A stretch of DNA of 25,321 nt from a virus: positions 1-25,321 of the IMG/VR virus record IMGVR_UViG_3300030098_001381. The stretch is one strand, 5' to 3'. Positions 889-16,208 of the stretch are shown piece by piece. A program made the translations under genes and the position numbers. The notes beneath the pieces are model-generated. The model saw only the letters and a list, made by a program, of their open reading frames with translations, did no database searches and had not been told where the DNA came from. The stretch's first letter is position 1, and each line of letters begins with the position of its first letter.

Positions 889-3084
889 ATGGCACAAAAC
901 AGACAAATGGGTGCAGGCATGATGCCTCCCCCAGCTTCTCCAGCTAATCCTACGGCGGTAAATTTTCAGAGCGACCCTAATATGCGTCAGCAGTTTAAGG
1001 GTTTTATGTCTGGTTTATCGAAAAGGATGGAGCAACAGCAGCCTGCGATGCAGGCTCCTTTGCCAATGCCTATGCCGATGCAGAACGTGGATATTTTTCA
1101 GCCTATGCCTATGGCGATGGGTGGTTCTGTGCCTCGTTCAACGAATATTGCGGGTCAGCCTCACATGTTATCGTACATTACTCCTGGCGAGGCAGGTATT
1201 TTGCAGTCTATGGGTGGTTCCGGCGCTCCTGGGCCAGGTGGCATTCCGTCATTTTTTCTTGATGAGGGCATGGAATCATATACGGGGGACACTGGTAGCT
1301 TTAGTTCTGGGGATTATAGTGCTGACAGTGGATCCACTAACTTTAGCTCTGGCAGCAGCAATTTTAGTTCAGATGATAGCGATAGTGGCTCTACTACTGG
1401 TTTAAACTTAACCTATAGTGACGGAACCCCTGCTGGTGTTGCGATTAGAGGCAATACCATCACTGGCGGCACTATAACGGGTGGTTCAGACCCAGTGGCT
1501 GCGGGTTTTGGTGGTGGTAGTAGCAGTGGTGTTGATGACAGCGCTGAATTTTTAGGCGTTCCACAGTTTGGTGTTGGTCGCCGTCCTTTTGCACAGATGA
1601 GTCGCGCTGTTATTCCTTCAACTATTGATATTACTGATGATTTGCGTGCTGGTGCAAGTAGAGATGCTTTATCTAGCGCTTTAAGCAGCGCTCAAAGATC
1701 CATGCTTAATGATGCGTATGCTCAACAAGCTAGAGATACTTTATCAAGTCCTCTAACAGGACCGTTGTCTACGACGTTATCAACTCCTATTTCCAAGAGT
1801 GGGTTTACTGATGATTTGAGAGCGGCCAGAACCAATCTTTTACTAGATGCTGATGCTGTTGCGAATTTAGCTGCTCAGGATGCCAATCTTCTTATGACTG
1901 ATTTTGGTGGTCCAGAAGAGAGAAGCAGAGAGGCTATGGATGCTGAAGCACAAAGGCTTTCTATGGGCGGCGGTCAGGTTAATGTAGATTCTTTAACTGG
2001 TGCATTAAGTTCTATTCCTGTGCCGATTGCTATGCCTGATGCGGTTAGAGAGCAAAGGGCTTTGTCTGACATTCAAGCCATGCAAAATCCTTTTAATCGT
2101 GGTGAATCTGCTGGTGAGAGGGTTGCTCAAGGCCAGCCTTCTGGTCAGGTTCAGTCAATTTATGACATTGATCCAAATTATGAAGAAAATGTGGGCAATC
2201 CAAACTTCTTGTCAGATGCAGGTCGAGAGTTGAAGTTCACTTTAAAAGGCTCTAGCCTCCCTGAAAATCAGAAATTTAACAGAGAGGCGGCGGAATTAGC
2301 CGCTGATGAAGGTGAGCCTATTTTTGCTCCAGGAGCATCCGCCGCTGAGGTTCAGGCGGCTATAAATGCTGCTCGTGCTACTGGTGATTCAGCGTTTACA
2401 AGACAATCAGAAATAGGTCGTTTGGCTGATTTAATGGATCGCCGTACAACTGTAACTTTAGCTGATCCTAAAAATAAACCAGGTAGAGTTGACCCTAATA
2501 CAGGATTGCCGACTAATGTTGACGCGAGAAGTGTTAGTTCTCTTGAGCAACTAGGTCGCCGTGCTGGAAGAGGTCAAACTGGTATTATGGGCCTTGTTGA
2601 TAAATATACTGGGTTTAACCCTGCCGAAAGAATGTATAATGATATTATTGAGAAAGGGTATTCGCCAGTTTATGACAGCCGTGGTCAGATTATCGCTACG
2701 GTTAACCCTAAAACAGGTCAGATAGGTGCAGGAAGTCGTCCTATTGATATGAATGCTATTTCTGAAACTGGGGGTGATTTAAAGGCGTTTATCTATAATC
2801 AGTTTGCTGACCAGAATGTATTTGGCGGCGGCGGTGATGATGGCGGTCAGCCTGACAAGCCAGATTTGTTAACCCCACCAAAACCTGATCCAGATGTCCC
2901 AGATGAGGATGACGATATTATTGATGCCCCCACTCCTCCCCCTGTGGTAATTCCACCGTTTCAAACAGGAGAGGCGGCAAAAGTGGCTAATCCTCTTGGT
3001 TTTGGGTATGGTCAATACACTCCAACTGGCAGCAATCTTGAATCTTCCGTTGATAAGTTTATAAAAATGCTTGGCGGGCGATGA
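889..3084 (+). CDS. Large low-complexity phage protein of unknown function (731 aa)
   Basis: The start is ATG 889 behind GAGG (878-881). The N-terminus is Pro/Met-rich (residues 1-75). A conserved-looking block follows at about 75-127 with MAMGGSVP and MLSYITPGEAGILQSMGG, a pattern I associate with proteins of uncultured marine phages. Next come a Ser/Gly/Asp-rich stretch (about 133-170), repeated Leu/Ser helices (two copies of DDLRA), a more globular part (about 430-640), and a Gly/Asp then Pro/Asp-rich linker (about 645-690) before a short tail. No enzyme motif or membrane segment is seen. Composition and position suggest a virion-associated or internal protein. The stop overlaps the terminase start as ATGA. 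The N-terminal block carries one copy of the recurrent hydrophobic-x-x-GG-x-V motif. Confidence 0.85.
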   Translation: MAQNRQMGAGMMPPPASPANPTAVNFQSDPNMRQQFKGFMSGLSKRMEQQQPAMQAPLPMPMPMQNVDIFQPMPMAMGGSVPRSTNIAGQPHMLSYITPGEAGILQSMGGSGAPGPGGIPSFFLDEGMESYTGDTGSFSSGDYSADSGSTNFSSGSSNFSSDDSDSGSTTGLNLTYSDGTPAGVAIRGNTITGGTITGGSDPVAAGFGGGSSSGVDDSAEFLGVPQFGVGRRPFAQMSRAVIPSTIDITDDLRAGASRDALSSALSSAQRSMLNDAYAQQARDTLSSPLTGPLSTTLSTPISKSGFTDDLRAARTNLLLDADAVANLAAQDANLLMTDFGGPEERSREAMDAEAQRLSMGGGQVNVDSLTGALSSIPVPIAMPDAVREQRALSDIQAMQNPFNRGESAGERVAQGQPSGQVQSIYDIDPNYEENVGNPNFLSDAGRELKFTLKGSSLPENQKFNREAAELAADEGEPIFAPGASAAEVQAAINAARATGDSAFTRQSEIGRLADLMDRRTTVTLADPKNKPGRVDPNTGLPTNVDARSVSSLEQLGRRAGRGQTGIMGLVDKYTGFNPAERMYNDIIEKGYSPVYDSRGQIIATVNPKTGQIGAGSRPIDMNAISETGGDLKAFIYNQFADQNVFGGGGDDGGQPDKPDLLTPPKPDPDVPDEDDDIIDAPTPPPVVIPPFQTGEAAKVANPLGFGYGQYTPTGSNLESSVDKFIKMLGGR

Positions 3085-4565
3085 ACAATCATTTTGATAT
3101 ACCTGTTGAATTTCTTACGGATGATGAGGTAGCAGAGCTTGGCAAGATTGTAGAGCGGCTTGAAGAAGTTTCTAAAAGAGATGAAAATCAAGATTCTTTT
3201 CTATCTTTTGTAAAAAGCGTGTGGCCTACATTTATTGAAGGCAATCATCACAAAATTTATGCAGAAAAACTGCAACGTGTAGCTGAAGGTAAGCTAAAGC
3301 GTTTAATTATTAATATGCCGCCCAGACACACAAAGTCTGAGTTTGCGTCATATTTGTTCCCTGCTTGGCTTATGGGCCGCAATCCCAACACAAAGATTAT
3401 TCAGGCAACGCACACGGCTGAGTTGGCTGTTGGCTTTGGTCGTAAGGTTAAGAATTTAATAGATAGTGAAGTATATCGTGATGTATTTCCTGAACTAAAG
3501 CTTGCTGCCGATGCCAAGGCATCTGGTCGCTGGTCTACATCTAAAGGGGGCGAGTATTATGCCGTGGGTGTTGGCGGTGCGCTGGCTGGTCGTGGTGCTG
3601 ATTTGTGTATCATTGATGATCCTGTATCTGAACAAGATGCGCTATCACCTACAGCACTCGATAATATTTACGAATGGTACACATCAGGTCCAAGACAAAG
3701 ACTCCAGCCAGGAGGATCAATAATTATCGTGATGACACGGTGGAGCATACGAGATTTAACAGCGAAAGTGTTGCAGAAGCAGGCAGAGGGCGGAGCGGAC
3801 AACTGGGAAGTTGTGGAGTTTCCAGCGATATTTCCAGATACAGACAACGTGTTGTGGCCCGAATACTGGAAACGAGAAGAGCTAGATGCCGTTAGAGCGT
3901 CTATTCCTGTAGCTAAGTGGAATGCTCAGTATTTACAGAACCCTACAGCCGAAGAAGGGGCGATTATCAAAAGGGAGTGGTGGAATGTTTGGGATAGTGG
4001 TAGCCCACCTGCCTGTTCGTACATCATACAGTCATACGACACAGCCTTTTCCAAGTCAGAGAGGGCGGACTATTCTGCTATTACTACTTGGGGCATTTTT
4101 GAGCCTGTGGATGGAGACGGCGAGGCCATCATCTTACTTGATGCCCAGCGAGGTCGATGGGATTTTCCAGAGCTTAAAGAAGTTGCCCAAGATTTATATA
4201 CAGAGTTTGAGCCAGACATGGTGCTTATTGAACAAAAGGCCAGTGGTATGCCGCTCACCCAAGAACTGCGGAGAATGGGGGTGCCTGTCACGCCCTTTAC
4301 CCCTTCAAGGGGGGCGGATAAGTTCACACGGATGAATGCTTGTGCGCCTATTTTTGAGTCTGGTATGGTGTGGCGACCTGATATGAATTTTGCTGAAGAG
4401 GTTGTTGAGGAGTGTGCCTCATTTCCTAACGGTGAACATGATGACTTGGCTGATTCGATGACACAGGCTATACTCAGGTTCAGACAGGGTGGATTTATCA
4501 TTACTCCCTCTGATTACGATGAAGATGATTACCGTGAATTTAATAGGAAACGGGAGTATTACTGA
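3081..4565 (+). CDS. terL: Terminase large subunit (packaging ATPase and nuclease)
   Basis: This 494-aa protein is the DNA-packaging motor and headful/cos nuclease. The ATPase half has a Walker A-like loop MPPRHTKSE (79-87), as in the Terminase_6 type, a Walker B LCIIDD (175-180) and a coupling motif MTRW (218-221). The C-terminal RNase H-like nuclease has the expected acidic residues: D320 in QSYDTAF, E384 in VLIEQKASG and D455 in GEHDDLADSM. The length is normal for TerL and no motif is missing. The start ATG 3081 overlaps the upstream stop as ATGA, and the end overlaps the next start as TGATG, so it is translationally coupled on both sides. It works at the portal vertex with the portal at 7372-9819. 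Confidence 0.97.
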   Translation: MNNHFDIPVEFLTDDEVAELGKIVERLEEVSKRDENQDSFLSFVKSVWPTFIEGNHHKIYAEKLQRVAEGKLKRLIINMPPRHTKSEFASYLFPAWLMGRNPNTKIIQATHTAELAVGFGRKVKNLIDSEVYRDVFPELKLAADAKASGRWSTSKGGEYYAVGVGGALAGRGADLCIIDDPVSEQDALSPTALDNIYEWYTSGPRQRLQPGGSIIIVMTRWSIRDLTAKVLQKQAEGGADNWEVVEFPAIFPDTDNVLWPEYWKREELDAVRASIPVAKWNAQYLQNPTAEEGAIIKREWWNVWDSGSPPACSYIIQSYDTAFSKSERADYSAITTWGIFEPVDGDGEAIILLDAQRGRWDFPELKEVAQDLYTEFEPDMVLIEQKASGMPLTQELRRMGVPVTPFTPSRGADKFTRMNACAPIFESGMVWRPDMNFAEEVVEECASFPNGEHDDLADSMTQAILRFRQGGFIITPSDYDEDDYREFNRKREYY

Positions 4566-5212
4566 TGGCAAAACCTGACGCACCAATTATGCCAGAGAAG
4601 GCAAAAAAAATTCGTAAGTATCGCAACACTCGCAATGACAAGACAAGCCTGCCTAAACAAGTTCGTGATTTTATTGCGGCGCAGGAATCTGGTTCTATGC
4701 CTGATGATGCGATTGCGCCTAAAGAAAAAGGAGCGACTTTACAAGAGCTTTATGACCAAGGTGTAATTAAGGGCAAGCGCCCCAAAAACATGCAAGAAGG
4801 CGGCATGGCTATCTCTGACGCTGATATTGCAAGTGTAAGAAGAGCTTTTGGTTCTCAAAGAGACGGTGAAAACACTATTTCAGATGCTGATAGGCAAAGA
4901 CTTCAGCAATTTCTTGCTGACACAGGCAATGACCAATCAATACGAAGAATGAGACAAAACCGCAGGCGTGCTAATGAATCTGCTAAAACTATTTCAGATG
5001 CGGACATTGCAAGAATAATGCGGTCCATTGGCATGGAGGAAGGTGGTGAAGCTGTTCCTGCAAAATTCAAAGGATTTTCCAAACTACCTGAAAAGGTTCA
5101 GCAGAAAATGGACCCTGACCTTGCTCAGAAGTATGAAAAGGGCGGGGCTGTTGGCAGTTGCCGTGGTATGGGTGCTGCTTTGCGCGGTGGCAAGTTCTCT
5201 GGGGTAAAGTGA
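4565..5212 (+). CDS. Basic phage protein with ISDAD repeats and GG motifs (215 aa)
   Basis: The start overlaps the terminase stop (TGATG). The protein is hydrophilic and basic. ISDAD occurs three times (83-87, 105-109, 143-147), each followed by a short amphipathic helix. The hydrophobic-x-x-GG motif also occurs three times: MQEGGMA (76-82), MEEGGEA (157-163) and YEKGGAV (190-196). The C-terminus ends RGGKFSGVK, related to the ends of the next two genes. I recognise no family. The lack of a membrane segment and the place between terminase and portal fit a virion or assembly accessory protein. The recurring ISDAD blocks suggest short repeated binding modules, possibly metal or partner binding; that is inference. 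Confidence 0.82.
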   Translation: MAKPDAPIMPEKAKKIRKYRNTRNDKTSLPKQVRDFIAAQESGSMPDDAIAPKEKGATLQELYDQGVIKGKRPKNMQEGGMAISDADIASVRRAFGSQRDGENTISDADRQRLQQFLADTGNDQSIRRMRQNRRRANESAKTISDADIARIMRSIGMEEGGEAVPAKFKGFSKLPEKVQQKMDPDLAQKYEKGGAVGSCRGMGAALRGGKFSGVK

Positions 5213-5214
5213 TT

Positions 5215-5418
5215 GTGGCTGATGACAAAAACAAAACTATTGACGGCTTGACTCGCAGGCAAATTTTGACGATTGGCACGACAAAAGGCGTTCAAAGTTT
5301 GACAGATGCTCAGTTTGATGAATACCAGAGTATGCGAGATAACCAACGCAAGGGTATAAAAAATTTTCGCGGCGGTGGTATTGCCTTACGAGGTAACAAT
5401 TTTAAAGGAGTGTTCTGA
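5215..5418 (+). CDS. Small phage protein ending in FKGVF (67 aa)
   Basis: GTG 5215 gives a natural start (MADDKNKT). GTG 5209, which overlaps the previous stop as GTGA, is the main alternative. An ATG at 5158 would overlap the upstream gene by 55 nt with an implausible N-terminus. The product is a short helical protein with DGLTRRQILTIG and SLTDAQFDEYQS, then FRGGGIA (51-57) and the end RGNNFKGVF, the same layout as its neighbours' tails. The last codons also contain AAAGGAG (5404-5410), the ribosome-binding site of the next gene. Function unknown; probably made together with 4565-5212 and 5418-5612. Confidence 0.75.
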   Translation: MADDKNKTIDGLTRRQILTIGTTKGVQSLTDAQFDEYQSMRDNQRKGIKNFRGGGIALRGNNFKGVF

Positions 5419-5612
5419 TGGCAAAGCCTTTTAAATCAAGAAAAGAAATAGCTAAAGGTTTTCAAAAGAAACCTCCTAGAGTGTTTAAAAAGCAGGGCAA
5501 GATAGCTGATTTTATAAGAGCCATTCAAGGGGAGCTTCCTCCGTTTAAAAAATACGAGAGCGGTGGGGCCGTAACAAAGGGCCGTGGTGGTAAGTTTAAG
5601 GGTATTTCATAA
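5418..5612 (+). CDS. Small basic phage protein ending in KFKGIS (64 aa)
   Basis: ATG 5418 shares a base with the previous stop (TGATG) and lies seven nt after AAAGGAG. The 64-aa product is Lys-rich in its first half, has a short hydrophobic helix (IADFIRAIQG, 29-38), then YESGGAV (46-52) and the C-terminus RGGKFKGIS. It is the third consecutive gene with a GG motif followed by a basic FKG(V/I) tail, which suggests related roles or common origin of the tails. No family recognised. It is too small and basic for an enzyme; nucleic-acid or capsid binding is inference only. Confidence 0.78.
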   Translation: MAKPFKSRKEIAKGFQKKPPRVFKKQGKIADFIRAIQGELPPFKKYESGGAVTKGRGGKFKGIS

Positions 5613-5725
5613 TGTTATTCGAGGTTGGGGCGAACAATTTTAGCCAAGGTGAAGCCCTTCATTCTAGGCTTGGCGTAAGAGAACCCTCCACTCAAAGCGT
5701 CAGGTTGTTCGTTCCAACGCTGTAA
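5612..5725 (+). CDS. Possible 37-aa protein, overlapping a structured RNA
   Basis: An open frame starts at ATG 5612, overlapping the previous stop by one base (TAATG), with AAGGG at 5599-5603 upstream, and closes at TAA 5723-5725, 12 nt before the next start. The fit between neighbours argues for a real gene. Against it, the same bases form a strong RNA-like fold, and the peptide (starting MLFEVGANNF, ending RLFVPTL) resembles nothing I know. It could be a leader peptide whose translation controls the fold, or chance. Confidence 0.4.
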   Translation: MLFEVGANNFSQGEALHSRLGVREPSTQSVRLFVPTL

Positions 5726-5735
5726 AAGGGGGGTT
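5624..5735 (+). ncRNA. Candidate cis-regulatory RNA with alternative folds
   Basis: Fold A: 5624-5640 pairs with 5702-5718 as an uninterrupted 17-bp helix (13 Watson-Crick, 4 G-U). It encloses a two-tier hairpin at 5643-5674 (GCCAAG/CTTGGC, then TGAA/TTCA with a GCCC loop). Fold B: AACCCTCC (5682-5689) pairs with GGGGGGTT (5728-5735), covering the ribosome-binding site of the gene starting at 5738, and AGCGT (5696-5700) pairs with ACGCT (5717-5721) inside it. The inner hairpin of B competes with the long helix of A. If only the anti-RBS pairing forms together with A, the result is a pseudoknot. This pattern suits a translational switch, but no known riboswitch class was recognised. Confidence 0.5.
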
Positions 5736-5737
5736 GG

Positions 5738-7372
5738 GTGTCAACAAAAGATGACATTTTAGAGCCGTTTGATTTTAAAAAATCACCAAGTATGAGCAGC
5801 CAGCTATTTAAGGCTGCTCCTGGTGTATTTGGTGGAAAGGACGGTGTTAATCCGTTACAGACAATCAATAGGGTTTTGGTTGGCGGCCCCCTTGATGTCA
5901 TCGATGCGGTTGGCAGAGCGGGAGAAACTGGTCTTCGTGCAGTTGCAGAGGGTGTGGAGGCTGCGACAGGCTTAACGGGCATTAAAAGAGATATCTATGG
6001 GTTGGGTCAGGTGGCTGGATTAGTGGCAGGGGCAAGCCCCTCAGCGCTGCCTAGTCTAAAATCACCTTCTACTTCGACACGCTCTGGTGCAGAGAAAGCG
6101 TTTAAAAGTCCGCCGAAGCAAAAAGAAAAAGCTTTTGAAAGCCCTTCTGATTTTTTTGAGATTATGGGAGATGATGGTGCAGGTGTAGAGTTCCCTCAAA
6201 TTGGAAAAGCATTGGATGATTATGTTTATGAAATGAACAGAGAGGGAATATTGAGAGCATTAAAGTCTGATGATTACCCTGAGTATCAAAAGGTATTAAG
6301 AACAAATTTAGATAGATTGTCTACTGAAAATAAGATTCCTGTATCTCGCATTGAAAATTACCTTGACCCTATGGCTGGCATAGAAGGACGCAGAACAAAA
6401 AGATTTTTTGACGTTGATAAAGATGATGTTCTTTTTGTTGGCAGTGATGCAGAACGCGAGTTAATTGTAAAAGGCCCAGATGGAAGCCCAATGTCAGTTA
6501 GATTTGAGTCTCCAGATCTTCCTGCAAGCCGTCCGCACGATGATCTAAACACATCAGAACTTCTAACTTCGTACATCATATCTCCAACCAGAAACCCAGA
6601 AAGTAAATCAGGAGTTACAAGACAAGAGCTTGTTAATCGACTTTCATCTGATGCAAATGCTCAAACAAAAACTCAAAAAGCTTTAGATGAGCTTGGATAT
6701 AAGGATACTGTTCCAGTATTTCGCACAGTAATATTAAAAGATGGCAAAGCTATGGACCCAGAAACGATTACGTCCGTATCTTTAAGGCCAAAAGCTTTTG
6801 CTGATACAAATAGCTTTTTAACTCAAGGGAAAATAGGTTTTGGTGATAATGTAATCGCTGTAAGGTATGATGTTCCAAGAGATAAATTTATTGGATATTT
6901 CCCAGCTCTTGCTGACGATATTAAGTCAAGCGTTAATAAAAAAATAAAAGAAAAGGGAATTGGTCAAACTGAAATAGAGGGTTTTAAAACTGTTACCAAT
7001 CCGTCTGAACATGCAAAGAATTTAATTGAAATGCAGGATGAGGCTATTGTTGACGTTTCTGGCTTAACCGCTAAACCATTAAAAGTGTTTGACAAAGATG
7101 AAATACAAAGCATGATTTCTATGAACTCATTTTTACCAAGAAAAATTGCATCACAAGAGTTAAAGTCAGGACCAGAGGTAAGGGCGGCGTTAGGAGAAAG
7201 CTATACGGCTGTAAATCCTTTTAAATTTAAAGGTACAAAAGAAGAATTTGAACAATTAAATCAAGAGGCCGCGCAAAAAATGTTTGAAAATTATGAGCGT
7301 TTTTTTAGAGGTGATTACAAACAAGGTGGTATTGTGTATAATCCTTTTAACGCAGGCATAGGAGCTTTGTAA
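5738..7372 (+). CDS. Phage protein with ADP-ribosyltransferase-like C-terminal domain (putative)
   Basis: The start is GTG 5738 after a G-rich ribosome-binding site (AAAAGGGGGG, 5724-5733). The N-terminal ~110 residues are Gly/Ala-rich (about 45-105, with a weakly hydrophobic stretch), then a basic linker and a globular region (about 135-260). Residues about 320-450 read like an R-S-E ADP-ribosyltransferase: VPVFRTV gives R329, ITSVSLRP gives S346/S348 and QDEAIVDVSG gives E435. These motifs are in the right order and spacing, with strand-like sequence between them. Such domains occur in phage structural or injected proteins that modify host targets. The extreme C-terminus has YKQGGIV (527-533). 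Next to the portal, a virion-carried effector is possible. Domain call is from motif reading only. Confidence 0.6.
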   Translation: MSTKDDILEPFDFKKSPSMSSQLFKAAPGVFGGKDGVNPLQTINRVLVGGPLDVIDAVGRAGETGLRAVAEGVEAATGLTGIKRDIYGLGQVAGLVAGASPSALPSLKSPSTSTRSGAEKAFKSPPKQKEKAFESPSDFFEIMGDDGAGVEFPQIGKALDDYVYEMNREGILRALKSDDYPEYQKVLRTNLDRLSTENKIPVSRIENYLDPMAGIEGRRTKRFFDVDKDDVLFVGSDAERELIVKGPDGSPMSVRFESPDLPASRPHDDLNTSELLTSYIISPTRNPESKSGVTRQELVNRLSSDANAQTKTQKALDELGYKDTVPVFRTVILKDGKAMDPETITSVSLRPKAFADTNSFLTQGKIGFGDNVIAVRYDVPRDKFIGYFPALADDIKSSVNKKIKEKGIGQTEIEGFKTVTNPSEHAKNLIEMQDEAIVDVSGLTAKPLKVFDKDEIQSMISMNSFLPRKIASQELKSGPEVRAALGESYTAVNPFKFKGTKEEFEQLNQEAAQKMFENYERFFRGDYKQGGIVYNPFNAGIGAL

Positions 7373-15612: not shown

Positions 15613-15628
15613 TACGAATAATTGTTCT

Positions 15629-15658
15629 AAAAGGGCGGCTTCCATGTCGCCCTTTTTT
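15629..15658 (+). terminator. Rho-independent terminator after the capsid gene
   Basis: AAAAGGGCGGC (15629-15639) pairs with GTCGCCCTTTT (15646-15656) with one G-U pair, a 6-nt loop TTCCAT and a T-run 15653-15658. It ends the head unit 17 nt after the capsid stop. Leaky termination here would raise capsid mRNA over the downstream genes. Confidence 0.9.
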
Positions 15659-15681
15659 ATTGTATAGTTAACCATCCCTGA

Positions 15682-15700
15682 CAGTCGTATGGTGCGACTG
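15682..15700 (+). other. Short inverted repeat in the capsid/tail intergenic gap
   Basis: CAGTCG (15682-15687) and CGACTG (15695-15700) flank a 7-nt spacer, between the terminator and the ribosome-binding site AGGAGA (15715-15720). It could be a 5' mRNA hairpin or an operator. TATAGT at 15663-15668 resembles a -10 box but has no convincing -35 partner. Confidence 0.4.
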
Positions 15701-15725
15701 ACACTAGCCACGACAGGAGATTACA

Positions 15726-16208
15726 TTGGCTAACACCACTTTTAACGGTCCCGTCCGTTCAGAAAACGGGTTCAAAAACGTCATTAAAAGCGCCACAACT
15801 GGTGAACTTACCAGCGAAATGACACTTTCTGTTTACACCGCAACTGTAACAGTCGCTAACGGTGCTACGACAGGAAAAGAGTCATCTATTGGCATTCCGT
15901 CAAACTTTATCCCTATGGGCGTGATGATTGCTGTAACTGGCGCAGCTTCTAATGCTGTCAACCTTGTTGATATTGGCACAGATGCTGATACAGACGGATT
16001 TGTTGACGGTATTACTGCCGCAGTAAACTCAACAGGATTTAAAGGGTTCTTCCCTTGTAATGGTGTGCTAGGTATGTCTGGTGGAGCAACCACCGCTGCT
16101 ACAGCCACCGCAGATGAGGTTGAGGTTGTAGTTTCTGGCGATCCAGGTGCTGACACAACAATAGTGATGAAGTTCATAGGCATTTCTAGCTCATCAGACG
16201 CTTCGTAG
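15726..16208 (+). CDS. Structural-type protein of unknown function (160 aa)
   Basis: The start is TTG 15726, six nt after AGGAGA, reading MANTTFNGPVRSENGFKNVI, a phage opening often seen in virion proteins of marine phages. The rest is Ala/Thr/Val/Gly-rich and beta-like with no membrane segment or enzyme motif. It is first in the unit after the capsid terminator. A head decoration or head-fibre protein is likely; the use of TTG suggests lower expression than the capsid gene. Confidence 0.75.
   Translation: MANTTFNGPVRSENGFKNVIKSATTGELTSEMTLSVYTATVTVANGATTGKESSIGIPSNFIPMGVMIAVTGAASNAVNLVDIGTDADTDGFVDGITAAVNSTGFKGFFPCNGVLGMSGGATTAATATADEVEVVVSGDPGADTTIVMKFIGISSSSDAS

Follow-up and report, generated by a model that had tools for sequence, protein, structure and literature searches.

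Mu-gpT-DE RNA (RF03012), a structured RNA of phage late operons, lies between the capsid gene and the next ORF and spans 53 nt. Rickettsia palindromic elements are structured repeats of roughly 100 nt, which are kept open within ORFs and occur at many loci. Leader-peptide attenuators and switches acting on the ribosome-binding site (RBS) combine a short ORF with a fold located right before the Shine-Dalgarno (SD) sequence. The phi29 pRNA, which is phage-encoded and linked to packaging, forms a three-way junction and carries interlocking loops (see also PMC5340915).

The RNA element described here is roughly 100 nt in size, is present in about 100 IMG/VR phage contigs, and was analyzed in the window, i.e., the whole 25,321-nt stretch of record IMGVR_UViG_3300030098_001381. 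Like Mu-gpT-DE RNA, it belongs to a phage late operon. The window also contains a copy of that RNA just 3' of the major capsid gene (15676-15728, 65.5 bits), which is the only Rfam 15 match above the gathering score over positions 1-25321 and lies away from the element; together with the element, the structured RNAs in the late operon of this phage thus number two or more. The capsid gene is also followed, at 15625-15660, by a strong hairpin that resembles a terminator and has a run of T (AAAAGGGCGGC...GCCCTTTTTT). As in the Rickettsia elements, the frame is kept open, in 39 of 41 intergenic copies as well as in copies within a gene, but the element is restricted to one interval, with a strongly conserved loop, instead of many unrelated loci. 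The short ORF that runs through the fold right before the SD sequence recalls leader-peptide attenuators and RBS switches, although neither an anti-RBS pairing nor a peptide is conserved, and the downstream gene varies. The three-way junction is shared with the phi29 pRNA (size being similar), whereas complementary, ring-forming loops are not, the two loops being GCCCUUC and CCCUCC. Moreover, the window phage is not phi29-like, and its element sits inside an open reading frame.

Between 5560 and 5780, the only Rfam match at E ≤ 10 was rli26, with 16 bits for a cutoff of 100, and eight relatives gave no Rfam match. The element has neither the cloverleaf of a tRNA nor the U-run after the hairpin of an intrinsic terminator. 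No description of it was found by a literature search with incomplete open-access coverage, and neither terminase nor portal is mentioned in the 104-motif paper. Apparently, this RNA element is undescribed so far.

Fold, covariation and strand

Sequence comparison shows that the element is a selected RNA structure: its shape is strongly conserved, in spite of changes in both the letters and the reading frame. In the window, it consists of an outer helix (P1) and two hairpins (P2 and P3) joined in a three-way junction (Table 1). The first-pass annotation had rightly pointed to a 17-bp pairing (5624-5640 with 5702-5718, including 4 G-U pairs) and to an internal hairpin at about 5643-5674, but had missed P3 (5671-5676 with 5697-5702, plus 5679-5681 with 5691-5693) and, with it, the junction. 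Positions 5621-5722 fold at -38.2 kcal/mol (z -3.70), with none of 200 shuffles equally stable; for the wider region 5600-5760, the z value is -1.57 and 16 of 200 shuffles are equally stable. The covariance models score the window copy at 114 bits (R1, E 1.1e-27, the window sequence being a member of the training set) and 104 bits (R2).

Table 1. Features of the element and its surroundings in the window.
Feature	Position	Strand	Remarks
37-aa leader ORF	5612..5725	+	TAATG overlap with the stop of the upstream gene; spans the whole RNA
Whole structured RNA element, three-way junction	5621..5728	+	Covariance-model match 5621-5730
P1 outer helix, 5' strand	5624..5639	+	Partner 5703-5718; additionally 5622-5623 with 5720-5721
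P1 outer helix, 3' strand	5703..5718	+	Covariation and fold
P2 hairpin	5642..5670	+	Double-sided changes in 5/5 modeled pairs; 93.5% paired
P2 loop GCCCUUC	5654..5660	+	Invariant across modeled alignments
P3 hairpin	5671..5702	+	Double-sided changes in 6/9 pairs (helices 3 and 4)
P3 loop CCCUCC (anti-RBS sequence of the first-pass annotation)	5684..5689	+	Nearly invariant in A1 and A2
SD-like GGGGGG of the GTG gene	5728..5733	+	Outside the conserved fold
544-aa gene, GTG start	5738..7372	+	Conserved N-terminal part with C-terminal modules that vary; not present in the nearest portal-adjacent relatives
Degenerate in-gene element copy	6011..6109	+	Site where 544-family homologues hold an intact copy

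Relatives were collected with the 544-aa protein (16 viral loci), peptide patterns (a dozen more) and two portal proteins (80 each). Many of these contigs have the same layout immediately 5' of the portal gene, with many letters changed. A MAFFT alignment of the first 18 distinct sequences recovers the junction, with double-sided changes in 13 of its 28 pairs, and plain MAFFT on 27 sequences raises this to 17. After fitting to the covariance model (34 sequences), 94.9% of the cells are paired and 20 of the 28 pairs are doubly changed, which none of 500 shuffles reached, while sliding the partners by 1-3 columns leaves only 39-46% pairing. The covariation search in homologues that the first-pass annotation had proposed thus gives a strong signal. 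In the fitted alignment, P1 shows double-sided changes in 9 of 14 pairs, with 97% of its cells paired. A covariation score blind to the structure (APC) also places 10 of the 24 P1/P3 pairs within the top 94 of 4676 column pairs.

There are 148 G-U cells for 11 A-C cells, a ratio somewhat favored by fitting the alignment to a structure that permits G-U; this excess points to the gene-strand (+) RNA as the selected molecule.

The junction is not retained in full everywhere, as some far families keep P1 and P2 alone. A separate 68-nt family (GAGGCTG type), which has only these two helices, shows 98.2% paired cells and 5 doubly changed pairs, and beats shuffles on 4 of 5 measures (0-1 of 500 shuffles). 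The far families (L093, L096, L121 and L157 types) were assigned by common layout, loop and position, with R2 scores of about 10-17 bits or none, so that their likely homology to the window type goes beyond what the model proves. The GCCCUUC loop was found in all far families examined, in all three codon phases.

Genomic setting and translation

The window phage encodes a terminase large subunit of phrog_38 and an SU10-type portal. The element-bearing phages form a group of marine phages, related by portal similarity to the HTVC023P and CRP-901 types (PMC10149686). Three pattern scans over 2.9 million viral contigs were carried out and the newly fetched matches inspected. All properly folding matches are near terminase, portal or 544-family genes, 3' of the terminase gene and about 13 to 1660 nt 5' of the portal where those genes are present in the data; the remaining matches lack such neighbors. 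Structured copies were thus detected exclusively in the terminase-portal interval, and all of them are oriented as the genes. In 29 whole records, the model search, which does not reach the far families, found at most one good copy each, except for an L007-type record with two intact copies (2946-3055 and 3324-3437, separated by 270 nt), one of them preceding a 544-family gene and the other within it. In bacterial genomes, 16 pattern matches were attributed to chance, none of them having terminase or portal neighbors or the fold.

No recognizable element was seen in the terminase-portal interval of four portal relatives (L079, L080, L082 and L084, with portals about 75% identical); it is, therefore, not essential to every such phage. 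The isolated phages HTVC027P, HTVC023P, CRP-902, GB2A, 023Pt and DSL-LC04 (portals 30-51% identical) have no convincing element either, the sole match being one of 12.8 bits in DSL-LC04, distant from its portal.

What follows the element in the 3' direction is not constant: it can be the portal, but also a 544-family gene or a different ORF. Most of the closest relatives (e.g., L018, L023 and L025) have the portal directly after the element and lack the 544-aa gene. As seen in the window and in L004, L005, L016 and L109, the 544-family protein combines an N-terminal part, which is conserved over about 95 aa, with exchangeable C-terminal modules, one of which may resemble ADP-ribosyltransferase-like domains; the AlphaFold model of the 544-aa protein has a mean pLDDT of 36, too low to be of use. 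At 14 loci (L004, L005, L009, L011, L013, L014, L016, L049-L053, L068 and L072), the element lies within the coding sequence of the 544-family gene, at about codon 95, where it encodes the linker between the N-terminal part and the modules. The window has only a decayed copy at this site, which scores 15.5 bits with R1 (E 0.41) and 22.3 bits with R2 (E 0.005), and has lost the junction fold.

The region 5' of the 544-aa gene had been described as the only sizeable gap in an otherwise overlapping run of genes. It is, in fact, filled by a coupled 37-codon ORF with a TAATG start, the stop of which is 12 nt 5' of the GTG at 5738. This coupled frame is open across the entire RNA in 39 of the 41 distinct intergenic copies for which a coupled start was found, versus 14 of 82 for the other frames; owing to close kinship within families, these counts stand for roughly ten lineages, not 41. 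The coupled ORFs are 35-46 codons long, and their frame relative to the RNA varies between families. A coupled start was sought and not found in L083/L087 and L112, and the coupled frame closes early in L093.

The ORF does not evolve as a protein gene. Within the window's own group, substitutions at codon positions 1, 2 and 3 number 6, 9 and 8 in the ORF, compared to 24, 9 and 79 over the first 111 codons of the portal gene; divergence at third positions amounts to 0.095 versus 0.251. The changes in the ORF are 16 amino-acid and 7 synonymous ones, and it has no match in Pfam or PHROG. The leader peptide suggested by the first-pass annotation, thus, survives as an ORF crossing the RNA, but not as a conserved peptide, and the purely codon-level constraint that would have spoken against an RNA structure is not seen. 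The in-gene copies likewise sit within an open frame, that of the 544-family gene, and 7 out of 9 are soon followed by an in-frame ATG, most with an SD-like sequence, an arrangement that echoes where the next start codon lies behind the intergenic copies.

From these patterns, it appears that the RNA and the openness itself are selected, the peptide not, and that ribosomes run through the RNA. What looks like a small ORF in a compact phage genome can, in this way, be the carrier of an RNA element instead of a protein gene. The strong structural conservation, together with the apparent requirement for translation in any frame, raises the question of why ribosomes must traverse the element.

Possible functions and competing explanations

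The reading that we prefer, tentatively and at somewhat less than even chances, is that of a translated RNA element which acts in cis where the packaging genes of the late operon give way to the head genes, with a putative biochemical role. Ribosomes coming from the upstream packaging genes would be carried through the element by the coupled ORF and would finish close to the start codon that follows. After each passage, the junction would re-form until the next ribosome arrives and present GCCCUUC to a binding partner, be it a protein, some nuclease or a second RNA, which might set transcript processing, or the strength of translational coupling, at this boundary. The candidate steps are processing by a nuclease, binding of a phage protein to the element as a translational operator, and a tuned coupling barrier. 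As for a trans target of the loop, GAAGGGC is absent from the window. The open frame could also merely shield the operon from Rho-type polarity, in which case it would be uninformative on the role of the RNA.

The main rival, in our view unlikely but to be taken seriously, is a processed noncoding RNA acting in trans, for which the terminase-portal interval would be no more than the site of its gene; examples would be an RNA used in packaging or assembly, or an sRNA whose loops are C-rich. Its location between packaging-motor genes, the compactness of the junction and its two conserved loops, both single-stranded, the mostly single copy per contig and the flexible operon position would all fit such an RNA. 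Nevertheless, the copies within the 544-family gene would demand that this mRNA be cut, the + strand shows no promoter-like site and the window copy no terminator-like site, and both loops are pyrimidine-rich and non-complementary, unlike the interlocking loops of pRNA. A selected open frame would, furthermore, have no obvious use in an excised RNA.

Next comes a selfish palindromic element of the Rickettsia kind, inserting only where the frame stays open, which we consider improbable. It would account for the occurrence before different genes and within a gene, for the two copies of L007 and the one plus decayed one of the window, and for a frame kept open whatever the phase. Selfish repeats are, however, expected at many loci, whereas the structured copies are confined to the terminase-portal interval, mostly one per contig, and the pattern matches in bacterial genomes are all due to chance.

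Slightly more doubtful still is a frame-agnostic translated RNA, in which selection would keep the ORF open solely to let ribosomes pass along an RNA that is related to packaging and used in assembly (pRNA-like, or binding terminase or portal), with translation controlling the folding or release of this RNA.

A DNA site (packaging site, origin or cruciform) would be consistent with the adjoining terminase genes and the inverted repeats, but it is very unlikely, given that the asymmetry of G-U over A-C is tied to one strand and that every copy shares the orientation of the genes.

The function originally proposed for this region was a translational switch, in which AACCCTCC (5682-5689) pairs with GGGGGGTT (5728-5735), in competition with the long helix, and so makes the RBS of the 544-aa gene inaccessible. 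These two segments are indeed able to pair, with 8 bp of complementarity and a duplex energy of -12.9 kcal/mol in the window, and the minimum free energy structure of 5600-5760 uses this pairing. In the partition function of the same region, however, P1 dominates the ensemble (mostly 0.56-0.86 per pair), while the anti-RBS helix has a probability of only about 0.14. The competing hairpin invoked for the switch is not needed by the conserved fold, in which CCCUCC stays an open loop. The 8-bp complementarity is found in the window alone; most relatives have just 3-5 bp and three have 6-7 bp, which is about what any C-rich loop would offer to an SD sequence, and the pairing is not kept before the same gene in homologues. 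Since, in addition, most relatives carry another downstream gene, and one subclade carries the RNA within the 544-family gene itself, the switch is removed as a conserved function. A device specific to the 544-aa gene is, hence, largely refuted by the comparison and highly improbable, and an effect confined to the window would still be conceivable.

An ordinary small phage protein gene of 37 aa with an accidental fold is scarcely credible: the 5' start/stop overlap resembles that of its neighbors and the frame is open in all close relatives, but the frame shifts between families while the RNA is conserved, the helices covary, and the substitutions show neither a third-position excess nor a preponderance of synonymous changes.

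The interval between terminase and portal holds other features as well. At 4565-5612 of the window, and in the homologous genes of L016, L083 and L143, successive small ORFs share the C-terminal motif GG...RG..FKG[VIS] and differ in their bodies among phages. In the distant relative Caulobacter phage GB2A (L186), a tRNA-Val gene is found in this interval, at 4618-4691.
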